Assembly (NCBI GenBank): GCA_021324595.1 | Contig: JAJPIV010000028.1 | Location: 1-64,000 of the forward strand | Direction: 5' to 3' | From: Actinomycetota bacterium | GTDB lineage: Bacteria; Actinomycetota; Actinomycetes; Streptosporangiales; Streptosporangiaceae | DNA length: 64,000 nt | Shown: positions 83-54,389 of the stretch, one piece after another | Numbering within the stretch: the stretch's first letter is position 1 | How the letters are laid out: every line of letters begins with the position of its first letter | The notes under the pieces: model-generated | What the model saw: only the letters and a program-made list of their open reading frames with translations | What the model was told of the DNA's origin: nothing | Database searches by the model: none | Made by a program: the position numbers and the translations under genes

Positions 83-1433
83 CGGCCGGCGGGTGCTGCT
101 GGCCGCCGGCCCCGCCGTACCCTCCCGGCACCGGGTCATGTGGCGCCTGGGCGGGCCGCCACGGGCCGAGAGGGTGCTGGGCCGGCAGGGCCGGCCGGCC
201 CTGGTCCGCCTGGCGCAGCACCAGGTCCAGCCCCTCCCGCCGCATTCGCAGGTCGGCGTACAGCAGCACCGTCACGCCGGCGCTGATCGGGCGCGTGCAG
301 GTCGCGGCGACGATGCTGCCGACGGCCCCGATGACGAGGGCCGCCGTTCCCGGAGCAGCAGCCCGCGGCGAGGCGAGCGAGACGCCGCCGCCGGCCAGCG
401 TGCTCAGCAGGGTGAAGGGAATCTCCAGCACCAGCGTCACCAGGACCACCACGAGCAGGGCCAGCAGGCTGATCCCGAACACCCGCCACCAGCTGCCGCG
501 CACCAGATCCCACGATCTCCTGAGCCCGGTCACCGGCCCGGCGCCCTCGAGCACCACGGCGGGCACGGCAAGGCTCAGCCCGACCCAGACCCAGATCGTC
601 ACGGCCAGCATGGCGAGGAACCCGAGGACGCCGATGGCCACCGCGGCAACCGCCGCCCTCGCGGCGAGAAGGACGGCCAGCACCACGGCGTACGGAATCC
701 ACATTCCCAGCAGCAGCAGCGACACCAGCAGCGTCACGCAGATCACCGGCCAGATGCGCGCCATCCGCCAGGCGTCGCCGATCGTCGTCGGCGCGCCGAG
801 CAGGCCGCGGCCAAGCACGCTGGTGAGCATGGCGGTGAGCACCTGCTGGAACACGAATGCGAGCGCGATCGTGACCAGGGCGAGCGGCAGCAGGCCCGCG
901 GCGAGCCCGGCCAGCGCGTGCCCGAGCCGGGCGGGGCCGGAGCCCGGCGTCAGGCTCCCGGTGAAGTTCTCCAGCCAGCGCTGCTCGGACCACCTCAGCA
1001 GCGTGGTGAGCACCCCCGCCAGGGTCTGGATGATGGCCGCGAGCCCGAGCGTGGCACCGGGGTTGCGGCGGATCAGCGTGAACGCGCCGCCCAGTATCTC
1101 CCCGGCGGTCAGCGGCCGCAGCGGCACGCCGCCGGGCGCCGGGGGCGGGGAAGGCCAGCCGCCGTAGCCGGGGGCGTATCCCGGGGGCGGGCCGTAGCCG
1201 GGGGGCGGGCCGTAGCCGGGGGGCGGGCCGTAGCCGGGGGGCGGGCCGTAGCCGGGGGCGTATCCCGGGGGCGGGCCGTAGCCAGGGGGCGGGCCGTGGC
1301 CCGGCGGAGGTGCCGCAGGGCCCGCCTGACCGGGACCGCCTGCGGGATCGGCCGGGCCCGGCCAGCCGCCCGGCTGGCCGGCGCGGCCCGGCCACGGTTG
1401 CTGGTGACCGGGTCCCGGGGAGTTCTCGCTCAT
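1..1433 (-). CDS. Pro/Gly-rich multi-pass membrane protein (glycerophosphodiester phosphodiesterase membrane-domain-like), 3' end beyond the window
   Basis: Minus-strand ATG at 1431-1433 opens MSENSPGPGHQQPWPGRAGQPGG...(GPPPGY)n...GGVPLRPLTAGEILGGAFTLIRRNPGATLG followed by several hydrophobic helices; open to the window edge, so absent from the ORF track. Confidence 0.7.
   Translation of the reverse strand, partial: MSENSPGPGHQQPWPGRAGQPGGWPGPADPAGGPGQAGPAAPPPGHGPPPGYGPPPGYAPGYGPPPGYGPPPGYGPPPGYGPPPGYAPGYGGWPSPPPAPGGVPLRPLTAGEILGGAFTLIRRNPGATLGLAAIIQTLAGVLTTLLRWSEQRWLENFTGSLTPGSGPARLGHALAGLAAGLLPLALVTIALAFVFQQVLTAMLTSVLGRGLLGAPTTIGDAWRMARIWPVICVTLLVSLLLLGMWIPYAVVLAVLLAARAAVAAVAIGVLGFLAMLAVTIWVWVGLSLAVPAVVLEGAGPVTGLRRSWDLVRGSWWRVFGISLLALLVVVLVTLVLEIPFTLLSTLAGGGVSLASPRAAAPGTAALVIGAVGSIVAATCTRPISAGVTVLLYADLRMRREGLDLVLRQADQGRPALPAQHPLGPWRPAQAPHDPVPGGYGGAGGQQHPPAGGGGQWGGGQWGGGQWGGGQWGGGQWG
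1165..1300. repeat. 18-bp tandem repeat encoding GPPPGY in the N-terminal tail of the membrane protein
   Basis: Repeated 'gtagccggggggcgggcc' units. Confidence 0.85.
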
Positions 1434-1616
1434 CCTGATCTCCGTCACATGCCGCCGGCACAGCCTCGCGACATGCCGGCCCAGCCTCGCGCTGCCGTGC
1501 TCATCCTGGCATGCCGCACGGGGCCGGCGGCCGCGCGCGGCAGGGCGAGGCCGCCGCCCGGATGAGCCGGCCCCGGCTCATCCGGCAGCCTCCGCGCCTG
1601 CCGCACACTGAACGCG

Positions 1617-2656
1617 TGAGCTTCGTGCCGCTGCGCTGGCTCGACCCGCCCGCCGGGCCGGCGATCGAGCTACTCGACCAGACCCGGCTGCCCGCCACCG
1701 AGGCGTACGTCACCTGCGCCGACGTTCCCTCGCTGATCGACGCGATCACGCGTCTGGTGGTCCGGGGCGCTCCGCTGCTCGGGATCGCGGGGGCATTCGG
1801 CGTGGCGCTGGCCGCCGCCCGCGGCGACGACGTGCGGGCGGCCGCGGCGGCGATCGAGCGGGCCAGGCCCACCGCGGTGAACCTCGGCTGGGGCGCCCGG
1901 CGAGCGCTCGGCGCGTACCTGCGCGCCCGGGCCGGCGCCGCCGGTGACGGTGGACGGGCCGCCTTCCTGGCCGCCCTGGAGGAGGCCCGCTCGATCGCCG
2001 ACGCCGACCGGCGGGCTTGCGCGCAGATGGCCGCGCACGGGCTGGCCCTGGTGCCGCCGGACGCGAGGATCCTCACCCACTGCAACACGGGCGCGCTGGT
2101 CACCGCCGGCGGTGGGACCGCGTTCGGGCTCATCCTGGCGGCACACCGGGCCGGCCGGCTCGCGATGGTGTGGATCGACGAGACCAGGCCTCTGCTGCAA
2201 GGCTCCCGCCTCACCGCGTTCGAAGCCGAGCGGGCCGGGCTGCCCTACCGCGTCCTCGCCGACTCCGCCGCCGCGTCGCTGATGGCGGCGGGCCTGGTGG
2301 ACCTCGTCGCGGTCGGCGCTGACCGGATCGCCGCCGACGGCAGCGTCGCGAACAAGGTCGGCACCTACGCCCTCGCCGTGCTCGCCAGCCACCACCGCGT
2401 GCCGTTCGTGGTCGTCGCGCCGAGCACGACGATCGACCCGGCGACGCCGGACGGCGCCGCGATCGCCATCGAGCAGCGCCGCTCCGAGGAGGTCACCTGG
2501 CATGCGGGCACCCCCCTCGCCCCGGCCGGCGCGGTCGCCTACAACCCCGCGTTCGACGTCACCCCGCCAGGGCTGGTCACCGCGATCGTGACCGAGCGGG
2601 GAGTGATAGATCCCGTCACACCAGGTAATCTGCGTCTGCTGAGGCCGCTGCCGTGA
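1617..2656 (+). CDS. mtnA: S-methyl-5-thioribose-1-phosphate isomerase
   Basis: VSFVPLRWLDPPAGPAIELLDQTRLPATEAYVTC...VRGAPLLGIAGAFG...THCNTGALVTAGGGTAFG...DLVAVGADRIAADGSVANKVGTYALAVLA; GTG start chosen inside the longer ORF 1511-2656. Confidence 0.92.
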
Positions 2657-7344: not shown

Positions 7345-8208
7345 ATGGAGATCATCTTCAGGGGCCGGCAGACGGATGTGGCAGCGCGGTTCCGCGAGCA
7401 CGCGACGGCGAAGCTGAACAGGCTGGAGCGCCTCGACCAGAATGCCGTCCGGGTGGACGTGGAGGTCTGCGTGGAGCGCAACCCCCGGCTGGCGAGCCAG
7501 CGCGAGCGCGTCGAGCTGACCGTCAGGTCCAAGGGGCCGGCGATCAGGGCCGAGGCCGCCGCCGAGGACCGGTTCTGCGCGCTTGACCTAGCCCTCGACA
7601 AGCTCGACTCCAGGCTGCGGCGGGCGATCGACCGGAGGAAGGCCCGCGCGCTCGGCCAGGGCGACCGCCGCGAGCCGGCCGGACTGGCGGCGCCGGCCCG
7701 CCCGGGCGGGCCGGCGCCGCAGGGTGGAGCGGAAGCGCCTGGCGGCGCGGTGCCGGCCGGCGGCGGGGCGCCGCCGGCCGGTGACCTGGTGCCGGCGCTT
7801 CCCGCCGGGGTGGTGCTGCCCGGGCCCCGGCGGGAGCAGGCGCCCGCGGGCGGGGACGGCGCCGCGGGACCGGCCGGGACCGACATGGTTCCGGTCGAGA
7901 TGGTGGGCGACGGGCCGCTGGTGGTCCGGCAGAAGTTCCACCACGCCACGCCGATCACGCTCGACCAGGCGCTGTTCGAGATGGAGCTCATCGGCCACGA
8001 CTTCTACCTGTTCCACGATGCGGACCGCGACCTGCCCAGCGTGGTCTACCGGCGGCGGGGCTACCAGTACGGGGTGATCAGGCTGGCGAGGCCGGAGGCG
8101 GGGGAGGAACACGGCGGCCCGCCGGCCCGGGCGGCCGGAGGCCGCGGCACCGCCGGAGACCGCGGCACCGCCGGAAACCGCGGCACCGCTGCGCCGGCGT
8201 CCGGGTGA
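7345..8208 (+). CDS. hpf: Long-form ribosome hibernation-promoting factor
   Basis: MEIIFRGRQTDVAARFREHATAKLNRLERLDQNAVRVDVEV... and C-terminal domain VVRQKFHHATPITLDQALFEMELIGHDFYLFHDADRDLPSVVYRRRGYQYGVIRL. Confidence 0.93.
   Translation: MEIIFRGRQTDVAARFREHATAKLNRLERLDQNAVRVDVEVCVERNPRLASQRERVELTVRSKGPAIRAEAAAEDRFCALDLALDKLDSRLRRAIDRRKARALGQGDRREPAGLAAPARPGGPAPQGGAEAPGGAVPAGGGAPPAGDLVPALPAGVVLPGPRREQAPAGGDGAAGPAGTDMVPVEMVGDGPLVVRQKFHHATPITLDQALFEMELIGHDFYLFHDADRDLPSVVYRRRGYQYGVIRLARPEAGEEHGGPPARAAGGRGTAGDRGTAGNRGTAAPASG
8142..8192. repeat. 18-bp tandem repeat in the hpf C-terminal tail
   Basis: 'cgcggcaccgccggagac / cgcggcaccgccggaaac / cgcggcaccgct', encoding RGTAGD/N repeats. Confidence 0.75.
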
Positions 8209-8445
8209 GGACCGGGTACTCTCGTCCTCGTCCCGGCGCCGCGGCGCTCCCCGGCCCGGGGCCGCGGCGCTCCCCGGCGCTGCGAGGGTCAAGGCCCTGC
8301 CGCGGCCCTGGTGCTGCCGCGACACCGTCCCGCCCGCCCGCTTGCGCCCGTGTCCGGGCTGGGCGAGAGTGTGTAGTGCCCGCCGGGCAAGGGCTCCGGC
8401 GCCCCGCGGCCGCGGTGGTCCTTCAGTCCCACAGGAAGGTCGAGG

Positions 8446-9156
8446 ATGTCAGCGAGCGCGGAGGCGGGCGGCGTGGCCGGGTCCGGCCCCGAGCCGATCC
8501 GCACGCTGATCGTCGATGATCACGCGCTGTTCCGCCGCGGCCTGGAGATCGTGCTGGTGAGCGAGGCCGACATCGAGGTCGTCGGCGAGGCGAGCGACGG
8601 GGCCGAGGCGGTGGCGAAGGCAGGCGAGTCCCTGCCCGATGTCGTGCTCATGGACATCAGGATGCCGAGGAGCAGCGGCATCGAGGCGTGCCGCGCGATC
8701 AAGGAGACCGCCCCGAGCGCGAAGATCATCATCTTGACGATGAGCGACGAGGAAGAGGACCTGTTCGAGGCCATCAAGGCTGGCGCGAGCGGCTACCTGC
8801 TCAAGGACATCCCGCTGGATGAGGTCGCGGCCGCCGTGCGCGCCGTGCATGGCGGCCAGTCGCTGATCAGCCCGTCGATGGCGGGCAAGCTGCTCACCGA
8901 GTTCGCCGCCCTGGCCAGGAAGGAGGAGACCGAGCAGCCGCAGCGGGTTCCCGCCCCCAAGCTGACCGAGCGGGAGATGGAGGTGCTGCGCCTGGTGGCG
9001 CGGGGGATGAACAACCGCGACATCGCGAAGGAGCTGTTCATCTCCGACAACACGGTCAAGAACCACGTCAGGAACATCCTGGAGAAGCTTCAGATCCACT
9101 CCCGCATGGAGGCGGTCATGGTGGCGGTGCGGGAGAAGCTGATCGAGCTGGGGTGA
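8446..9156 (+). CDS. NarL/FixJ-family response regulator
   Basis: REC domain ([20 protein letters not shown]...[10 protein letters not shown]) plus LuxR HTH ([43 protein letters not shown]). Confidence 0.93.
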
Positions 9157-10393
9157 GCGGGCCCGGCCGCCCGGCCGGGACGCCGACGGCCGCCAGGGCG
9201 GAACGCAGCCTCGGCTCCAGGCCGGCGGGCCGCACCTGGTCGACCCGGACATCGTCGCACCCGACCCATGCCGCGGCCTCGCGCAGGGCGCGCGCCATCG
9301 GCCCGGCGGCGCCGGGCTCGTCGAGGGTGAGCTGCCTGGCCACGAGGGTCCGTCCCTCGCGCGCCGGGTCAGCACGGCCGACCAGCCTGCCGCCCGCGAG
9401 GAGCGGCATCGCGAAGTACCCGTGGACTCGCTTGTGCCTGGGCACGTAAGCCTCCAGGCTGTGGTCGAAGCCGAACATCCGCCTGGTCCGGCTGCGGTCC
9501 CAGACCAGCGGGTCGAAGGGGGACAGCAGCACGGCGCGGTGGCGGCCGCGCACCGGCCCGGCCAGGGCCGCCGGGTCTGCCCAGGCCAGGGTGGCCGGCC
9601 CGGCGCGGGACCCCACCCGCACCCGGACCAGCCCGGCGGCCAGCGCCGCCTGGTCGGCGCTGAGCCCGGCGGCGTTGCGGCCGCTGCCGAAGTTACCGAT
9701 CCGCTGGTAGTCGCGCAGGTCCGCCGCCGTCGCCACGCCCAGGGCGCGGGCGGTGACCCCGGCCAGGTGGATCAGGCACTGCGCGTCGGTCGGGTCAGCG
9801 GCGAGCAGCTCCGCGGGCAGCACCCGCTCGGGCAGGTCGTACACCCGCCGCCAGCCGGCGCGCCGGGCGCAGATCACCTCGCCGATGTCCAGCAGCCACT
9901 CCACCGCGATCTTGGCCTCCGACCAGTCCCACCATGGCCCCTGGTTCTTGGCGCCGCCGAGCTGGGTCGCGGTGAGCGGGCCCTCGGCGCGGAGCCGGGC
10001 CAGCACCTGGGCGCAGAGCCGCTCGGGGACGCGGTGCCAGCGCCATCCCCGCGCCCGGAACGCGCGCCGCCGGAACGCGTAGTACGGCCACTCCTCGATC
10101 GGCAGGATGCACGCGGCGTGCGCCCAGTACTCGAACGCGGCCGGCCTGCGGGGATGCCAGTAGGCGCGCTCGATGCTGGCGCGCGGGACGGCGCCCAGCC
10201 TGGCGAAGGCGACCAGCTCGTGCGACCTGGCCAGGACGCTGATCGTGTCGAGCTGGACCGCGCCGATCCTGCGCAGCATCGCGGGCACGCCGCCCTGGCG
10301 CGGCCGCGCCCCCACGAGCCCCTGGGCGCGCAGGGTGAGCAGCCTGGCCTCGTCGGGCGTGAGCGTCAGTTCTGGCGGGGGGACCGGGGACAC
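9116..10393 (-). CDS. YcaQ-like winged-helix DNA glycosylase family protein
   Basis: [26 protein letters not shown]..., [19 protein letters not shown]...; start chosen from ORF 9116-10393. Confidence 0.85.
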
Positions 10394-34346: not shown

Positions 34347-36023
34347 GTGAGCGGGAAGCCACGGAGCGTGCGGCAGGCGCAGGCCCAGCTGTCGGCGCAA
34401 CTGCGCGGCATGGGACGCTCCTGGGCCGAGATCGCCGCCGTCTTCCAGGAGAGGTACCGGGTCAACCCGCGGGTGGCGCTCCGGCAGGCGCACGGGTGGA
34501 GCCAGCCGCAGGCCGCCGCCCGGTGGACCGCGCGCTGGCCGGATGACCCGAAGACCTTCAAGAGCTTCTCCTACTGGGAGCAGTGGCCAGGGCGGACCGG
34601 GCACGCCCCCTCCCTGGACACCCTCGACAGGCTCGCCCAGCTCTACGAGTGCCGGATCACCGACCTGCTGGCGGACTGCCGCGACTACGGCGGGCCGGGC
34701 GGGGAGCCCGGCCCGGGCGCGCCGGCCGCGCGGGGCGACGAGCCCGCGCCCGCCGCGGTGGCGGCACCCGCCGGCCTGCCCGGCCCGGCCGCGGGCGGCG
34801 CGGAACGCCCGCTCTCCGCCGAGGTGCTCAGGGCGGCCCTGGAGACGATCAGGCAGGCCCAGGCGGCGGAGGCCGAGGCGGCCCGGGCGGCGGCCGCCGC
34901 CCCGCCCGCCGCCCGGGCCGCCGCCCCGGGCGCGGGAGGGCCGGAGGAGCAGATCAGCAGGCTGCGGCGGCGCACGCTGCTGCTCGAGGCGAGCAGCGCC
35001 CTGGCGGTCCTGGCGGCCGCGCCCGTGCTCGAGGTGCCGCGCCTGGTCACCGGGACCAGGCCGGGCCGGCCGCCGGTCGACCTCAGCGTGGTGAACTACA
35101 CCGGGGAGGTGGTGGCCGGCCTGCGGCGGCTCGGCGGCGCGGTGGGCCCGCGGATCACGCTGCCCCCGGCCATGGCGCTCCGGTCCGCGATGGCGGCGCT
35201 GGCCAGGAGCGCGCCGGAGGTCGTCACCAGCCAGGCGCTGACCGCCTACGGCGACCTGACCCAGCTCATCGGCTGGCTGATGTTCAACCTCGGGGATCAC
35301 AAGTCGGCGCTGTACTACTACGACGACGCCCGCGCCGCCGCCCACCGGGCGGGCAGCCACGACCTGGTCGCCTATGCCCTCGCCGCCACCGGCCACCTGG
35401 AGATCCACCGCCGCCGGCCCCGCCACGCGATCGACCACGCCCAGGCGGCGTGGCAGGCGGCGAAGGCGAGCGGGAGCCCCTACGCGCTGGCGTACGCGGC
35501 CGACGTGACCGCGCGCGCCTACGCCGCCGCCGGCCAGGTCTCGCGCTGCCACGCCGCCCTGGACCGGGAGCGGGACGCGCTGCTGCGGATCGGCGCCGGC
35601 ACCCCCCGCGCGCCGTGGTGGTACTTCTACGACGAGTCCTTCTACTGGGGCACCGAGAGCGAGTGCGCGCTCAAGCTCGACATGCCGGTCGAAGCCTGCG
35701 ACGCCGCCCGCCAGGCGCTCGGCCTGGTGGAGCCGCACAACCTGCACAACAGCGCGCTCACGCTCGCGTTCCGCGCCGAGGCGCTGATCAGGCAGGGCGA
35801 GGTCGAGGAGGCCTGCAGGTCGATCGCCGACGCGGCCCGGTACACGACCATGAACAGCTCGAAGCGGATCTCGCGGCGGATCGAGCACCTGCGCCGGCAG
35901 CTGCGCGGGGCGGAAGGCTCGGCCGCGGTCCGCGAGCTCGACGATAAGCTCGCCGAGTACCGGCGGGCGCGCGCGGCGGCCGGCGTGCCGCCGGGCCTGC
36001 CCGGCTGGGGCAGGGTGCCGTGA
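34347..36023 (+). CDS. XRE-like DNA-binding regulator with TPR-like C-terminal region
   Basis: N-terminal regulator domain with FSYWEQWPGRTGHAPSLDTLDRLAQLYECRITDLLADC; C-terminal helical repeats (ALYYYDDARAAAHRAGSHDLVAYALAATGHLEIHRRRPRHAIDHAQAAWQAA...). Confidence 0.8.
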   Translation: MSGKPRSVRQAQAQLSAQLRGMGRSWAEIAAVFQERYRVNPRVALRQAHGWSQPQAAARWTARWPDDPKTFKSFSYWEQWPGRTGHAPSLDTLDRLAQLYECRITDLLADCRDYGGPGGEPGPGAPAARGDEPAPAAVAAPAGLPGPAAGGAERPLSAEVLRAALETIRQAQAAEAEAARAAAAAPPAARAAAPGAGGPEEQISRLRRRTLLLEASSALAVLAAAPVLEVPRLVTGTRPGRPPVDLSVVNYTGEVVAGLRRLGGAVGPRITLPPAMALRSAMAALARSAPEVVTSQALTAYGDLTQLIGWLMFNLGDHKSALYYYDDARAAAHRAGSHDLVAYALAATGHLEIHRRRPRHAIDHAQAAWQAAKASGSPYALAYAADVTARAYAAAGQVSRCHAALDRERDALLRIGAGTPRAPWWYFYDESFYWGTESECALKLDMPVEACDAARQALGLVEPHNLHNSALTLAFRAEALIRQGEVEEACRSIADAARYTTMNSSKRISRRIEHLRRQLRGAEGSAAVRELDDKLAEYRRARAAAGVPPGLPGWGRVP

Positions 36024-36856
36024 TGACCGGGAAGGGCCCGATCCCCGACGGGGCCGAGGCCACCAGGCCGAGCGTGGCCCGGGTGTACGACTTCCTGCTC
36101 GGCGGGCACCACAACTTCGCGGTCGACCGGGAGTTCGGCCGCAAGCTGATCGAAGCCGAGCCGAACGCCCGCGAGATCGTCGCGGAGAACCGCGCGTTCC
36201 TGGGACGGTCGGTCCGCCATCAGGTCGCGGCCGGGATCAGGCAGTTCATCGACCTGGGATCGGGGATCCCGACCCAGCGGAACGTGCACGAGATCGCCCA
36301 GGCCGCGGACCCGGCGGCCCGGGTCGTCTACGTCGACAACGACCCGGTCGCGGTCGCGCACAGCAGGCACATCCTGCGCGGCAACCCCGGCGCCGCCGTG
36401 ATCGGCGAGGACATGCGGGACCCCGAGGCGATCCTCGCCCACCCGGACCTGCGCGGGCTCATCGACCTCGCCGAGCCCGTGGGGCTGCTGTTCGTCTCGG
36501 TCCTGCACTTCCTGCCCGACTCCGACGATCCGGCCGGGCTGGTCGGAGGGTTCGCGCGGCGGCTGGCGCCGGGCAGTCACGTGACGATCTCGCACGTGAC
36601 CCACGAGCCGCTGCCCGGCACCGCGGCCGAGGTCGTGAAGCTGTACCAGCGGACCACCAACCCCGCGCGCACCAGGACGCGCGGGGAGATCCTCGCCCTG
36701 TTCAGCGGCTTCGAGCTGATCGAGCCCGGCCTGGTGCTCATGCCGCTGTGGCGTCCGGACGGCCCTGCCCCGGAGCACCCCGAGCGGTGCTGGTATTACG
36801 CCGGCGTGGGCCGCAAGCCCGCGCCCCAGGGCACGCTCAGGCCGCTCGCTCGGTGA
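36020..36856 (+). CDS. SAM-dependent methyltransferase, DUF574/Methyltransf_19 family
   Basis: RPSVARVYDFLLGGHHNFAVDREFGRKLIEAEPNAREIVAENRAFLGRSVRHQVAAGIRQFIDLGSGIPTQRNVHEIAQ; ATGA overlap with the regulator gene. Confidence 0.9.
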   Translation: MMTGKGPIPDGAEATRPSVARVYDFLLGGHHNFAVDREFGRKLIEAEPNAREIVAENRAFLGRSVRHQVAAGIRQFIDLGSGIPTQRNVHEIAQAADPAARVVYVDNDPVAVAHSRHILRGNPGAAVIGEDMRDPEAILAHPDLRGLIDLAEPVGLLFVSVLHFLPDSDDPAGLVGGFARRLAPGSHVTISHVTHEPLPGTAAEVVKLYQRTTNPARTRTRGEILALFSGFELIEPGLVLMPLWRPDGPAPEHPERCWYYAGVGRKPAPQGTLRPLAR

Positions 36857-42020: not shown

Positions 42021-42824
42021 ATGGTGGTCCGCGATGACCTGGGCAACCCGGTGGTGCTGCCCCGGCGCGTGCGGCGCGTCGTGTCGATCGTGCCGTCGCT
42101 GACCGAGTCGGTCGCCGCGAGCGACGCGGGGCTGATCGCCGGGGCGACCGCCTACTGCACCCATCCGCCGGGGCTGGAGGTGCCGCGCCTGCGCGGGACC
42201 AAGAACCCGGACGTGGCGAGGATCATCGCGCTCCGCCCTGACCTGGTGCTCGCCAACGAGGAGGAGAACCGGGAGCCGGACCTGGCCGCGCTCCGGAGCG
42301 CGGGCATCGCGGTGTGGGTGACCAGGATCCGCTCGCTGCCCGAGGGGCTCGCCTCGCTGGCCCGGCTGCTCACCGTCGCATGCGGGCTCCCGCGGCCGGG
42401 CTGGCTGGACGCGGCGGCGGCCGCCTGGGAGCGCGCGGCGGGGCGGCCCCGCCCGGCGCGGCGGGCGGTCATCCCGGTGTGGCGGCGCCCCTGGATGGTC
42501 GTCGGCAGCGACACGTTCGCCGGGGACCTGCTCGCCCGGCTCGGCGTCGTCAACGTGTACGCGGCCCACCCGCAGCGGTACCCGAGGGTCGCCCTGGACG
42601 AGCTGCGGGCGGCCGGCGCCGACCTCGTCGTGCTCCCGGACGAGCCGTACCGGTTCACCGCCGACGACGGCCCTGAGGCGTTCCCCGGGCTGCCGGCCGC
42701 GCTGGTGAGCGGCCGGCACCTCACCTGGTACGGCCCGTCGCTGGTCCGGGCACCTGCGGTGCTGGCGGGCCAGCTCGCGCGCCCGCTGCCGCCGGCCGCG
42801 CGGCGTTACCCGGGGCCGCGGTGA
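42021..42824 (+). CDS. Helical-backbone metal-receptor (BtuF-like) protein without a signal peptide
   Basis: RRVVSIVPSLTESVAASDAGLIAGATAYCTHPPGLEVPRLRGTKNPDVARIIALRPDLVLANEEENREPDLAALRSAGIAVWVT. Confidence 0.82.
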   Translation: MVVRDDLGNPVVLPRRVRRVVSIVPSLTESVAASDAGLIAGATAYCTHPPGLEVPRLRGTKNPDVARIIALRPDLVLANEEENREPDLAALRSAGIAVWVTRIRSLPEGLASLARLLTVACGLPRPGWLDAAAAAWERAAGRPRPARRAVIPVWRRPWMVVGSDTFAGDLLARLGVVNVYAAHPQRYPRVALDELRAAGADLVVLPDEPYRFTADDGPEAFPGLPAALVSGRHLTWYGPSLVRAPAVLAGQLARPLPPAARRYPGPR

Positions 42825-47652: not shown

Positions 47653-49713
47653 GTGGCCGGGAACGACGACGAAATGGGTGCCGCGATCGGACAGCTCGCG
47701 GCCGAGCTGGCCGAATGCAGGCAGCGGGGCATCGAGAGGCTGGACCGCCACGGTCACAAGCAGTCGCCGGTCGCTGCGGACGTGCTCCAGCGGCTAGCCC
47801 GGGAGTACACCGAGTCGCGGGGGATCCAGGCGCATGGCCGGACCGCGCAGATCAAGGTGCTGCTCAGGCATGCACTTGACGCGCTCGCGGTGGCCGGCGG
47901 CGAGGCGGACGCGAACCTGATCCGCGACTTGTTCTTCGGCGACTCGGCCGGCATCGTGCTGATGTCCGCGGGCGAGCTGCTCGAAAGCGCCCAGCGTAGG
48001 CTCGGCGAGCCGAGCGAGGCGCGGTTCCGCGAGCGTCGGCAGACCGCGTTCCGCGCCTTCGCGGCCTTCCTGATCCAGTTTGCCGCCGACGCGCGGGGCC
48101 GGGCGGACGACGCGCGGGGCCGGGCTGCCGGAGCCGAGGCCGTCCCCGGGGCCGAGCCGGGAGGCGGCGCGGGCGCAGCTGTCGCGGCCACGGCCAGCCG
48201 GCTCGCGGGGGTGACGCGGCGCGAGGTGGCCACCGCCTACGTCGATGACGGCGAGCGCTTCGTCGAGCTGCTCGCCGAGGCCATCAACGTGACGATCGTC
48301 GGGTACACCAACCAGCGCCTGGCCGGGCGGCTTGAGGAGGCGCTGCGGCGCAAGCGCGAGGCGCTCGGGAGGCCGGATGCGTTCTGGAGCTCGCTGCGGA
48401 TCGTCTACCTCAGCATGGGCCTGCTCGATTTCCTCAATGACGAGCGCTCGGAATTCCCCGACCCCAAGGAGGCGGCCCGGCTGCGGCGGCTGGCCGCCAC
48501 CTACGGGTATCGTTCCCTGCTCGCCTTCCTGCGGCGCACCCCGTCCTTCCGGTGGGCGCTCTATGAGGCCCAGCACGTGCCCCCGCTGATCGGCACGATC
48601 TTCGAGATGCCCGCCGGCACGCGGATCGTCCAGCTGCTGGTCCCGCGCCCGCAGCGCAGCGCCCCCGACCACCGCTTCATCGAGATGGAGGACCTGCCCG
48701 ACCAGTACTTCGCCAGCGCCTTCGAGGACATCGTCCACAACAGCGTCAGCGACAACAAGATCGTGCCGATCGGGCTGCCGGCCGATGGGGTGTTCCGCTG
48801 CACCGGGATGCGGTACCGGCAGAGGGTGCTCGTCGACGGCTCCGGGGAGACCGGATGGCTGCCCGTGGTGCTCGTGATCACCTACCAGCGCCGCGGCGAT
48901 CGGGTAGACGTCCTGCTGCAACGGCGCACTGCGAACAATGCGGCCCGCGAGCTCGGCCGCATCTCGCACCTGGCCGCCCACATCTACTACCAGGAGATGA
49001 TCGAGGCCGGCCCGCCAGGCGGCGCTGCCCAGCTGATCCTCGGCATCGACGACGAGGTGACCGTCCAGGCGGCCCGGCGGCGGGTGCAGATGGAGACCGG
49101 GGAGGACCTGCCGCTGGCGCTGCTTCCGGTCGGCACTGGCCGGTACCTGCATCACGACAAGGAGCACATGTTCTTCTTTGCCTACGCGCTGGAGCTGCCC
49201 GAGGACTTTCAGTTCCCGCGCCAAGCCGAGATGAGCTCGTTCTCCCTGGGCGCGCTGCTAGACGTGCGGGAGAATCACGCGCTGCGTAACGCGCTGCTGC
49301 TGTGCCGGTCCGCTGGCATGTCGGCGCGGGCCTGGTCGGTCGGCTCGGAGATCGCCGCGCTCAACCTGGTCCTGCACGGCCATGGCGATCTCGCGGACCG
49401 CGTCAGGACCAGCGGCGGGCCGTCCGGCGCCAGGTGCGCGGCCGTGGCCGCCGAGCTCGAGGAACTGGAGCGGCGGACCAGGCAGCAGTGGATCAGCGGC
49501 GGCCAGGAGGCGGAGATCCTCGGGCTGTCCGGCTGGCAGTTCCGCGAGCTCTACGGGATCCTGCTGCCGGCCTACGCCGCCCTCGGCATCACGGGGGCCG
49601 GCCAGCAGCTGGCCCTGCTGCGGGCCGACACGGGCAGGTCGCGGGCACTTGCCCGGCTCGCCGAGCTCTACCACGACGAGACCCTGATGACCGGCCTTCC
49701 GCTGGAGCTGTGA
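47653..49713 (+). CDS. Multidomain protein of unknown function: helical N-terminal domain, middle alpha/beta domain, degenerate Nudix-like region
   Basis: GTG start VAGNDDEMGAAIGQLAAELAECRQRGIERLDRHG...; middle INVTIVGYTNQRLAGRLEEALRRKREALGRPDAFWSSLRIVYLSMGLLDFLND; C-terminal PVVLVITYQRRGDRVDVLLQRRTANN...AARRRVQMETGEDLPLALLPVG...KEHMFFFAYALELPEDFQFPR. Confidence 0.75.
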   Translation: MAGNDDEMGAAIGQLAAELAECRQRGIERLDRHGHKQSPVAADVLQRLAREYTESRGIQAHGRTAQIKVLLRHALDALAVAGGEADANLIRDLFFGDSAGIVLMSAGELLESAQRRLGEPSEARFRERRQTAFRAFAAFLIQFAADARGRADDARGRAAGAEAVPGAEPGGGAGAAVAATASRLAGVTRREVATAYVDDGERFVELLAEAINVTIVGYTNQRLAGRLEEALRRKREALGRPDAFWSSLRIVYLSMGLLDFLNDERSEFPDPKEAARLRRLAATYGYRSLLAFLRRTPSFRWALYEAQHVPPLIGTIFEMPAGTRIVQLLVPRPQRSAPDHRFIEMEDLPDQYFASAFEDIVHNSVSDNKIVPIGLPADGVFRCTGMRYRQRVLVDGSGETGWLPVVLVITYQRRGDRVDVLLQRRTANNAARELGRISHLAAHIYYQEMIEAGPPGGAAQLILGIDDEVTVQAARRRVQMETGEDLPLALLPVGTGRYLHHDKEHMFFFAYALELPEDFQFPRQAEMSSFSLGALLDVRENHALRNALLLCRSAGMSARAWSVGSEIAALNLVLHGHGDLADRVRTSGGPSGARCAAVAAELEELERRTRQQWISGGQEAEILGLSGWQFRELYGILLPAYAALGITGAGQQLALLRADTGRSRALARLAELYHDETLMTGLPLEL

Positions 49714-49772
49714 CCCCCGGTACGACCGCCATCCTCAGGGTGGCCAGGCACGGCGACCGATATAAGTGTGCT

Positions 49773-50426
49773 GTGAACGTGGACGCCTACTTCGATGACC
49801 TGTACCGGAGCCATGACCGGTACTGGTGGCGGGGTGATGAGCGGTACTCGGCTGCCGCCGACGCCTATCCCACGTCACTGCTCACCCAGCAGACGCTCCG
49901 GCTGATCGAGGGCCGCCCGCCCGGGCGCGCCCTCGACCTCGGGGCGGGTGAGGGAACCGACTCGATCAGGCTCGCGCTGCTCGGCTACGAGGTGGACGCG
50001 GTCGAGGTCAGCAGTGTGGCAGCGGGCAAGATCTGCTCGTTCGCCCGGGCTGCGGGCGCGCGGGTGAACGTGATCGTCGCCGATGCGGGCACCTACCGTC
50101 CTGCCAGCCGTTACGACGTGGTGATCTGCAATGGCGTGCTGCACTACATCGAGGACAAGGAGCCGGTCCTGCGGGCGATGCAGGAGGCCACGGCAGACGG
50201 CGGGCTGAACGTGCTCTCGTTGTGGAGCACCTACACTCCGGTGCCCGGCTGCCACCAGCGGGTGCCGGTGAGCTGTGACGATGAGAACGGCCTGGTCGTG
50301 AAGGCATACCAGGGCTGGCGCAAGGAACTGCTCTACATGGAGCGGGACAAGCCCGAGGCCGCGCACGGCGAGATGCCGCCGCACCGGCACAGCCACATCA
50401 AGATGATCGCCCGCAAGGCGCCGTGA
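49773..50426 (+). CDS. Class I SAM-dependent methyltransferase (TehB-like)
   Basis: GRALDLGAGEGTDSIRLALLGYEVDAVEVSSVAAGKICSFARAAGARVNVIVADAGTYRPASRYDVVICNGVLHYI. Confidence 0.88.
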   Translation: MNVDAYFDDLYRSHDRYWWRGDERYSAAADAYPTSLLTQQTLRLIEGRPPGRALDLGAGEGTDSIRLALLGYEVDAVEVSSVAAGKICSFARAAGARVNVIVADAGTYRPASRYDVVICNGVLHYIEDKEPVLRAMQEATADGGLNVLSLWSTYTPVPGCHQRVPVSCDDENGLVVKAYQGWRKELLYMERDKPEAAHGEMPPHRHSHIKMIARKAP

Positions 50427-50996: not shown

Positions 50997-51806
50997 TCAC
51001 CGCGTCTTCCTGGCGACGCCGCCCCACGCGGACCTGGCGTCCGCCGGCGCCTGGTCGGCCGGGTCCGGCCGCCAGGCATGGACGTACACCACGCCGGGGG
51101 GCACGAGCTCGAGGCCGTCGAAGAAGCGGGACACCTCCTCCCTCGTGCGCAGCGTCTGCGGGGTGGAGACCCGCTCGTTGTAGCGGCGCTGGGCCTCCGC
51201 CTGGGATGGGTGGATGTCGCTGGCCGGGTGAGACAGGGCCAGGTAGCTGCCCGGCGGCAGCGCCGTCATCAGGCGGGCGGTGATGCGGTACGGCTGCTCG
51301 CTGTCCTGGATCAGGTGCATGATGCCGAGCAGCATGAGCGCCACTGGCCGGGAGAAGTCGAGGGTCCGGGCAGCCTCCCGGAGGATGGCGTCCGGCTGGC
51401 GCACGTCCCCGTCGATGTACTGGGTCGTCCCGTGCGGCCCGCTGGCCAGCAGCGCGCGCGCGTGGACGAGCACGATCGGGTCATTGTCCACGTAGACCAC
51501 CCGTGCGTCCGGCGCGACCGCCTGGGCGACCTCGTGGGTGTTGCTGGCCGACGGGATGCCGGTGCCGATGTCGAGGAATTGCCGGATCCCCGCCTCGCCG
51601 GCCAGGTACCTGACCGCCCGGGCCAGGAACGCCCGGTTGGCCCGCACCCGGAACCGCAGTCCCGGGCTGACCGCGAGCACGCGCTCCGCCGCCTCCCGGT
51701 CCGCGGTGAAGTTGTCCTTGCCGCCGAGCCAGTAGTCGTAGACGCGCGCCGGATGCGCGACCGACGTGTCGATGCTGGCCGGCATTGCCCCTTCGCGGCT
51801 GTCCAT
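50997..51806 (-). CDS. SAM-dependent methyltransferase, DUF574/Methyltransf_19 family
   Basis: SIDTSVAHPARVYDYWLGGKDNFTADREAAERVLAVSPGLRFRVRANRAFLARAVRYLAGEAGIRQFLDIGTGIPSASNTHEVAQ. Confidence 0.9.
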   Translation of the reverse strand: MDSREGAMPASIDTSVAHPARVYDYWLGGKDNFTADREAAERVLAVSPGLRFRVRANRAFLARAVRYLAGEAGIRQFLDIGTGIPSASNTHEVAQAVAPDARVVYVDNDPIVLVHARALLASGPHGTTQYIDGDVRQPDAILREAARTLDFSRPVALMLLGIMHLIQDSEQPYRITARLMTALPPGSYLALSHPASDIHPSQAEAQRRYNERVSTPQTLRTREEVSRFFDGLELVPPGVVYVHAWRPDPADQAPADARSAWGGVARKTR

Positions 51807-53315: not shown

Positions 53316-54389
53316 TCACCCCAGCACGGCGTCGAGCTGGGCGACGAACGCGGCCAGCGCGAGCGGGTGATCCTGCAGCCGCCAGTCCTGGTGGTAGCGG
53401 CCCCGGTTCTGCGGGATGTTGAACCAGACCAGCCCGCGCAGGTGGAAGCGGCGGATCCCGGCGAACAGGTTCGCGATGTCGGCGCCCTGGTCAGCGGTCA
53501 GCGGGCCCACGGACGTCTCGCCGACCAGGATCGGCTTGCGGGTGAACGAGCGGAGCAGCCGGATCGTCTTCGCGAAGATCGCGTCGAAGTCGTCGGTCGG
53601 GACGATGTAGTAGCCGTCCAGCCCGATCTCGTCGACGTACTGGGATCCCGGCCACCAGGGCACGGGCGACGGGGTGGAGAAATGGATCGCGGACGGCTGC
53701 CACATCCACGTGACGTAGCGGCCGGCGGGGCTGCTCATCACCACGCCGTGGATGTGCCGCCAGGCACTGACGTAATCGGCCGGCGTCGCCCGGCCGGTGC
53801 CGTAGGAATACCACTGCCCGTTCATCTCCGGCGCGAATGAGATGGTGACGATCCGGTGCAGCCGCGCGACGGCGGGGTCGAACACCGCCTGCAGCCAGGA
53901 GTCCTCGCTCCCGGCCGCGATGGCGGCCATGGTCGTGCCGAACGGCTGGAGCTCCAGGACGGTCTGGGCGCCGAGCCTGCGGTTCGCCAGGATCGCCCTC
54001 GCCGGGAAGTAGGGACCGCCCATCTTCACGAACATGACGCGCAAGTTCGCCCGGTGCCGGATCGCCCGGTCGAAGGCGGCCAGGTTCCTGGCGACCGTGC
54101 CGATGATGAAGCCCGTCGGCAGTGCCCTGGGCTCGGCGCGTGGCGCCGGGGTGAGCGGCGCGGCCGAGCCGGCTGCGGCGTGCCCGGCTGCGGCGTGCCC
54201 GGCTGCGGCGTGCCCGGGTGCGGCGTGCCCGGGTGCGGCGTGCCCGGCTGCGGCGTGCCCGCCCGGCCGGGCCGGCGGGCCGGCGGCCGCCCCGGTCCCG
54301 GGCGCCGCGCACGCGGCGAGCGGTACCGCTGACGCGAGGGCTGCGGCCATTGCGAGAAGCCGCGGTGCGGCGGGCGCGGTCCGCTTCAT
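53316..54389 (-). CDS. GH26-like glycoside hydrolase lipoprotein
   Basis: Lipobox-like PLAACAAPG; TISFAPEMNGQWYSYG (acid/base Glu) and KPILVGETSVG (nucleophile Glu); low-complexity linker. Confidence 0.8.
   Translation of the reverse strand: MKRTAPAAPRLLAMAAALASAVPLAACAAPGTGAAAGPPARPGGHAAAGHAAPGHAAPGHAAAGHAAAGHAAAGSAAPLTPAPRAEPRALPTGFIIGTVARNLAAFDRAIRHRANLRVMFVKMGGPYFPARAILANRRLGAQTVLELQPFGTTMAAIAAGSEDSWLQAVFDPAVARLHRIVTISFAPEMNGQWYSYGTGRATPADYVSAWRHIHGVVMSSPAGRYVTWMWQPSAIHFSTPSPVPWWPGSQYVDEIGLDGYYIVPTDDFDAIFAKTIRLLRSFTRKPILVGETSVGPLTADQGADIANLFAGIRRFHLRGLVWFNIPQNRGRYHQDWRLQDHPLALAAFVAQLDAVLG
54168..54264. repeat. 15-bp tandem repeat encoding the GHAAA/P linker of the GH26-like protein
   Basis: 'tgcccggctgcggcg/tgcccgggtgcggcg' repeated about 6 times. 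Confidence 0.9.

Follow-up and report, generated by a model that had tools for sequence, protein, structure and literature searches.

What might a large protein with a degenerate Nudix-like domain do beside a TehB-like methyltransferase, in the genome of an uncultured soil-type actinobacterium? The question is raised by two adjacent genes, A and B, lying in a window of 64,000 nucleotides (positions 1 to 64,000 of contig JAJPIV010000028.1, assembly GCA_021324595.1, family Streptosporangiaceae). The reading to which we give slightly better than even chances sees in A and B an accessory module of immunity or conflict that works by nucleotide signalling, in which A would be the sensor and B its partner. 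The original prediction located and described both genes correctly: the frames are intact, the codon-position GC signal is strong in the frame of gene A, and homologues were found for each, eight further sequences being 39-52% identical to the window protein over the shared core of A and four being 61-66% identical to B. Since both genes are conserved as proteins, neither is a chance frame. Their domains, together with two related gene sets, are listed in Table 1.

Table 1. Position of the A-B pair, of the domains of A and of two related gene sets (window positions unless a locus is named).
Feature	Position	Strand	Basis or content
Gene A, multidomain sensor-like protein, 686 aa	47653..49713	+	GTG start, open frame, eight homologous sequences
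N-terminal helical module, about residues 1-156	47653..48120	+	alignments; helices in low-confidence model
Middle domain, residues ~197-373, probable inactive phospholipase-D-like (DUF5919-type)	48241..48771	+	hhalign
Nudix-fold domain, residues 405-531	48865..49245	+	PF00293, AlphaFold core model, Foldseek
Degenerate Nudix box AARRRVQMETGED	49069..49107	+	RE is RR, EE is ME
C-terminal helical domain with one beta hairpin, residues 532-686	49246..49710	+	confident part of core model
Gene B, TehB-like class I SAM methyltransferase, 217 aa	49773..50426	+	PF03848, TehB structures, paired orthologues
Three-gene set, locus L070 (G323)	7369-9486	+	two-TM/dead-PLD protein, TehB-like methyltransferase, DUF218
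Three-gene set, locus L069 (G268)	146-1862	-	first frame apparently partial, C-terminal part only

The protein encoded by gene A had been described as made of three parts; the domains then recognised are present, and their count rises to four with the addition of a C-terminal helical domain, which the alignment finds in all full-length homologues. Searches of NCBIfam and PADLOC returned no match for this protein, and no meaningful sequence match occurs in the PDB. The Nudix domain is recognised by Pfam (PF00293, 22.8 bits for a cut-off of 21.1, E 9.8e-5), and an AlphaFold model of the core, built from nine core sequences (pLDDT 72, pTM 0.63), is confident for the Nudix and C-terminal parts and poor for the second half of the middle domain. 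A Foldseek search with this model leads to the Nudix fold, with AraR as the best match, NrtR bound to ADP-ribose and NadQ below it, and many Nudix enzymes among the lower matches; the viral library likewise yields Nudix proteins. We take AraR, NrtR (ADP-ribose) and NadQ (NAD/ATP) to be non-hydrolytic Nudix regulators. The Nudix box with its catalytic glutamates has the consensus GX5EX7REUXEEXGU. In the window it reads AARRRVQMETG; each of the nine family members has R or L where the RE glutamate would be, and the upstream GX5E is not preserved across the family. Owing to these losses hydrolysis by A is unlikely, and the active Nudix hydrolase that PF00293 could denote was rejected as a candidate, the fold being present and the catalytic-glutamate box failing in 9/9 members. 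To judge from the degenerate box, ligand binding by the Nudix domain appears more likely than hydrolysis, which agrees with the original prediction; the Nudix fold and the decayed box that it had proposed were both recovered, and structure prediction of the core, which might have contradicted the fold, did not refute it.

The middle domain, presented at first as a conserved-looking sensor, is indeed conserved, and is best explained as an inactive phospholipase D (PLD)-like domain. Compared by hhalign with a set of 18 dead-PLD/DUF5919-like domains, it aligns end to end and collinearly over 152 of 177 columns (71% probability, P 3.6e-5), the controls with the same set giving P 0.12 for the Nudix profile and P 0.06 for the C-terminal profile. 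The match came with the 18 PLD-like relatives; a single PLD protein, compared with the core in the same way, produced no match. No invariant histidine occurs in the middle domain of the nine members, hence no catalytic HKD site. This domain would most likely be an inactive PLD-like sensor, a predicted assignment for which the hhalign support, at 71%, is moderate.

The N-terminal module, whose helices come from a five-sequence AlphaFold run of low confidence (pLDDT 45.6), was not found outside the gene A family in 299 genomes. The alignments reveal that it is swapped for a TIR domain (PF13676, E about 1e-15) in the relatives of A at loci L058, L019 and L020, while A of the window carries no TIR domain. 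The TIR domain of L058 can be aligned to AbTIR, an NAD hydrolase, and the alignment takes in the catalytic glutamate of the WxxYE motif. The role of adaptor once suggested for the helical N-terminus is not borne out; relatives have a TIR effector in the same place, so that the helical module may itself be an effector or an effector-recruiting module. In the tree of the cores, whose deep support is weak, TIR and helical forms are intermixed: the window core is nearest in identity to the TIR-bearing core of L058 and to that of L008 (52% each), and the core of L007 groups with that of another genus. Taken with the swap of modules, this mixing indicates that the core acts like a receptor chassis on which the N-terminal output can be exchanged.

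In L019 and L020, both from another genus, the TIR-core gene follows a same-strand gene for a SLATT_3-SLATT_1 protein (E about 1e-45 and 1e-35) and is itself followed, again on the same strand, by a gene that is SLOG/DprA-like, by weak Pfam matches (E about 1e-3) below the cut-offs. The same core thus occurs with TIR, SLATT and SLOG-like partners in these two loci, and with TIR only in L058. SLATT and SLOG domains are hallmarks of predicted nucleotide-centred conflict systems, so that the resemblance to conflict modules first noticed in the layout of the locus gains support from the TIR fusion and from the SLATT and SLOG neighbours, all of them in relatives. At the window locus itself, Pfam searches and the neighbouring genes reveal no TIR, SLOG or SLATT, no recognised defence gene was found beside A-B, and a search with the SLATT protein of a relative gave no match in the window genome.

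The site occupied by A and B is variable. A contig of the genome G002, syntenic with the window, keeps the genes at window positions 42021, 44037 and 45019 on the left and 51989, 54537, 55595 and 56412 on the right; the cassette, which lies in the window segment 45900-51900, is missing there, and other genes, including one for a GntR-like regulator, take its place (L096 9144-14023). G004 has its pair, whose core is of another lineage, beyond the amidohydrolase gene that neighbours the window cassette, and inverted relative to that cassette. The cassette is patchy within the window's genus, and the same-genus cores are 43-52% identical, versus 78-85% for the neighbouring amidohydrolase. Such a variable site, together with a divergence of the core far beyond that of its neighbours, is the pattern of accessory, exchanged and fast-evolving genes. 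Among other features of these regions, two Methyltransf_19 (PF04672) genes occur in the window (36020-36856 on the + strand and 50997-51806 on the - strand, one of them flanking the cassette), and another was identified by eye near the related locus L070. The window also encodes a secreted protein resembling Glycosyl hydrolase 26, with a linker of GHAAA/GHAAP repeats (53316-54350, - strand). In L007 (7787-9858, - strand, G004), the A homologue is immediately preceded, on the same strand, by one gene for an OmpA-like lipoprotein and one multi-TM gene, an arrangement not seen at the other loci.

The main rival to the immune reading is that A would be a transcription regulator of the NrtR/AraR/NadQ type, a Nudix sensor with a C-terminal winged helix controlling B, whose product would serve a detoxification or metabolic pathway, the TIR fusions being a side branch. 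The top Foldseek matches are Nudix-family regulators, and some alignments continue past the Nudix domain of A into the helices and single hairpin that follow, for which no family match was obtained. Dead-PLD domains are joined elsewhere to HTH-like N-termini (L078 and L086, by eye), and a TATAAG / TATAAGTGT element, promoter-like in its TATAAG, lies directly before gene B at 49760-49774, as it also does in L058. However, neither an HTH nor an NrtR winged helix is matched in Pfam or NCBIfam, and a patchy spread with fast divergence is unusual for a house-keeping regulator. Moreover, the Nudix domain and C-terminus are kept beside TIR and SLATT/SLOG genes, where DNA binding is not expected; because of these contexts the regulator is disfavoured as the general role of the family, and we consider it unlikely.

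The distribution of the two genes bears on a second rival. Among 60 relatives, homologues of A were found in only two other genomes, both of the window's genus. In order- and family-wide searches, with the alignment and the core of a relative as queries, 9 of the 343 host-family genomes proved to contain the core, 8 of them in full or almost full length; the ninth (G664, locus L061) keeps a remnant only. A class-wide sample of 395 genomes added no further core genome, although few candidates per genome were scored and distant relatives may be missed. A contig scan with the single A sequence returned nothing, and one with the alignment returned only the two loci already found; weak order-wide matches in other genera (G139, G174, G200, G032) were treated as chance. 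Searches of plasmids, phages and viral contigs yielded no homologue. The close subfamily of gene B, defined by E <= 1e-30, occurs in 7 of 342 host-family genomes. Core and close B are found together in 5 genomes, always nearby on the same strand: in the window, in L007 (G004, same genus), in L059 and L060 (a second genus) and in L058 (a third genus). The chance of at least five shared genomes is about 3e-8 (hypergeometric p, not corrected for genome relatedness), and the genes flanking the pairs differ across the three genera. The recurrent pairing with a methyltransferase, which might have been peculiar to the window genome, is therefore found in four more loci. In L060 the core and B are separated by a second core gene, which is convergent. 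The core also occurs without B, either beside SLATT/SLOG genes or beside PolA: in L008 (6789-11038, - strand, G002) a paralogous core gene is separated by 14 nt from the family A DNA polymerase gene downstream of it, and L009 (1717-4093, + strand, G004) holds a decayed version of this arrangement, no methyltransferase being found beside either core.

In this second rival reading A would be the toxic component and B its neutraliser, in a toxin-antitoxin-like or inter-bacterial conflict that has nothing to do with phage. The reading would agree with the two-gene layout, the patchy distribution, the decayed copies (L009 and L061) and the swappable N-terminal module. It is made decidedly improbable by the cores that occur without B, and by the much better conservation of B (54-79% identity among pairs) than of the core (33-53% outside two near-identical pairs), which is not typical of antitoxins.

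Gene B starts with GTG, 59 nt downstream of A on the same strand, with a possible upstream start at 49740. Its product matches PF03848 (TehB) with 44.5 bits for a cut-off of 20.4, as well as several class I methyltransferase Pfam models, and its closest solved structures are TehB; orthologues paired with the core occur in L007, L058, L059 and L060. Against the NCBIfam TehB equivalog models it fails every cut-off (50.5 vs 303, 47.6 vs 218 and 45 vs 219.5 bits). The TATAAGTGT element may be the -10 promoter of a leaderless transcript or the conserved coding of a longer N-terminus; since TATAAG may be a separate promoter of gene B, co-transcription of A and B is not certain. A PADLOC match of gene B to mad2 would suggest membership of MADS and was rejected as unspecific, mad2 also matching a Methyltransf_19 gene; the only other mad match is a MerR regulator matching mad1. 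That B would detoxify tellurite- or selenite-like oxyanions, with A sensing the associated stress, fits the TehB Pfam match and the nearest structures but is very improbable, given the scores far under the NCBIfam cut-offs, the TIR partner in L058 that it leaves unexplained, and the fact that, to our knowledge, tellurite is not the established natural substrate of TehB. Two lower-similarity carriers of B, L070 and L069, contain an overlapping gene set of a PLD-like protein, B and a DUF218 (YdcF-like) protein; in L070 the PLD-like protein combines two probable TM segments with a dead-PLD domain. This set is possibly a sister system of A-B.

In the immune reading, which we prefer, A would sense a ligand through its inactive PLD-like and Nudix domains; the likeliest candidates are nucleotides or nucleotide-diphosphates, for instance derivatives of NAD or ADP-ribose. 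Once bound, the ligand would switch the N-terminal output module, a TIR NADase in some relatives and the family-specific helical module in the window. The product of gene B would act together with A: it would probably make, modify or remove the ligand, or else protect the host from the output of A. An anti-phage purpose is presumed. This reading is favoured because L058 carries a TIR-core-methyltransferase unit with the catalytic glutamate, because the TIR-core protein sits between SLATT_3/SLATT_1 and SLOG-like genes in L019 and L020, and because core and B co-occur beyond chance. In addition, more distant relatives of B pair with another dead-PLD protein, the best Foldseek matches are non-hydrolytic regulators, the syntenic G002 contig is devoid of the cassette, and same-genus copies diverge more than their neighbours. 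Against it count the window copy without TIR, in a genome without detectable SLATT and with no adjoining defence gene, the lack of homologues in plasmids, phages and viral contigs, the moderate PLD assignment, and the SLOG-like gene below Pfam cut-offs.

No description of a dead-PLD and dead-Nudix protein with a TehB-like methyltransferase, nor of DUF5919, was found in the open-licence literature, and the pair probably represents a form of nucleotide-based bacterial immunity that has not yet been described. A more specific version, in which the methyltransferase makes or edits a methylated nucleotide-type messenger, the dead-Nudix/dead-PLD receptor reads it and the exchangeable effector fires, seems quite doubtful; if true, some lineages would have a TIR NADase as the effector, and the window a new class of helical effector. 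The A-B pair would tie a small-molecule methyltransferase, via one receptor-like core, to TIR-type, SLATT/SLOG-associated immunity. The loci, with their TIR or helical outputs and their methyltransferase, SLATT/SLOG or PolA neighbours, offer a compact, testable set for asking which ligand is read by the receptor, and whether methylation serves to write, erase or guard the signal.

With respect to known systems, TIR, SLOG, SLATT and Nudix parts of the conflict systems predicted by the Aravind group have been discussed in general, Nudix domains being proposed as NAD/ADPr-processing parts of nucleotide-centred systems (PMC9503650, PMC7159879). The relatives of A resemble these systems in carrying TIR between SLATT_3/SLATT_1 and SLOG-like genes, whereas the window pair has none of the three. 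The NrtR/AraR/NadQ regulators share with A a sensing Nudix fold with a degenerate box and are the best structural matches of its core, but in A a PLD-like domain and a TIR or helical module are added, and no domain recognised as DNA-binding occurs. The DUF5919/inactive PLD-like actinobacterial sensors align end to end with the middle domain of A, and one of them pairs with a more distant relative of B (L070, L069); unlike A, they are fused to 2TM or HTH segments and have no Nudix domain. Thoeris (ThsA/ThsB) shares the concept of TIR-based NAD signalling, the TIR relatives of A matching ThsB models weakly, yet no ThsA occurs, the TIR domain is fused to a PLD-Nudix core, and the window protein has none. 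Finally, TehB, the tellurite methyltransferase, resembles the product of gene B in its class I SAM fold, its PF03848 match and its place among the closest solved structures, whereas gene B scores low against the equivalog models and has a sensor protein as its partner.
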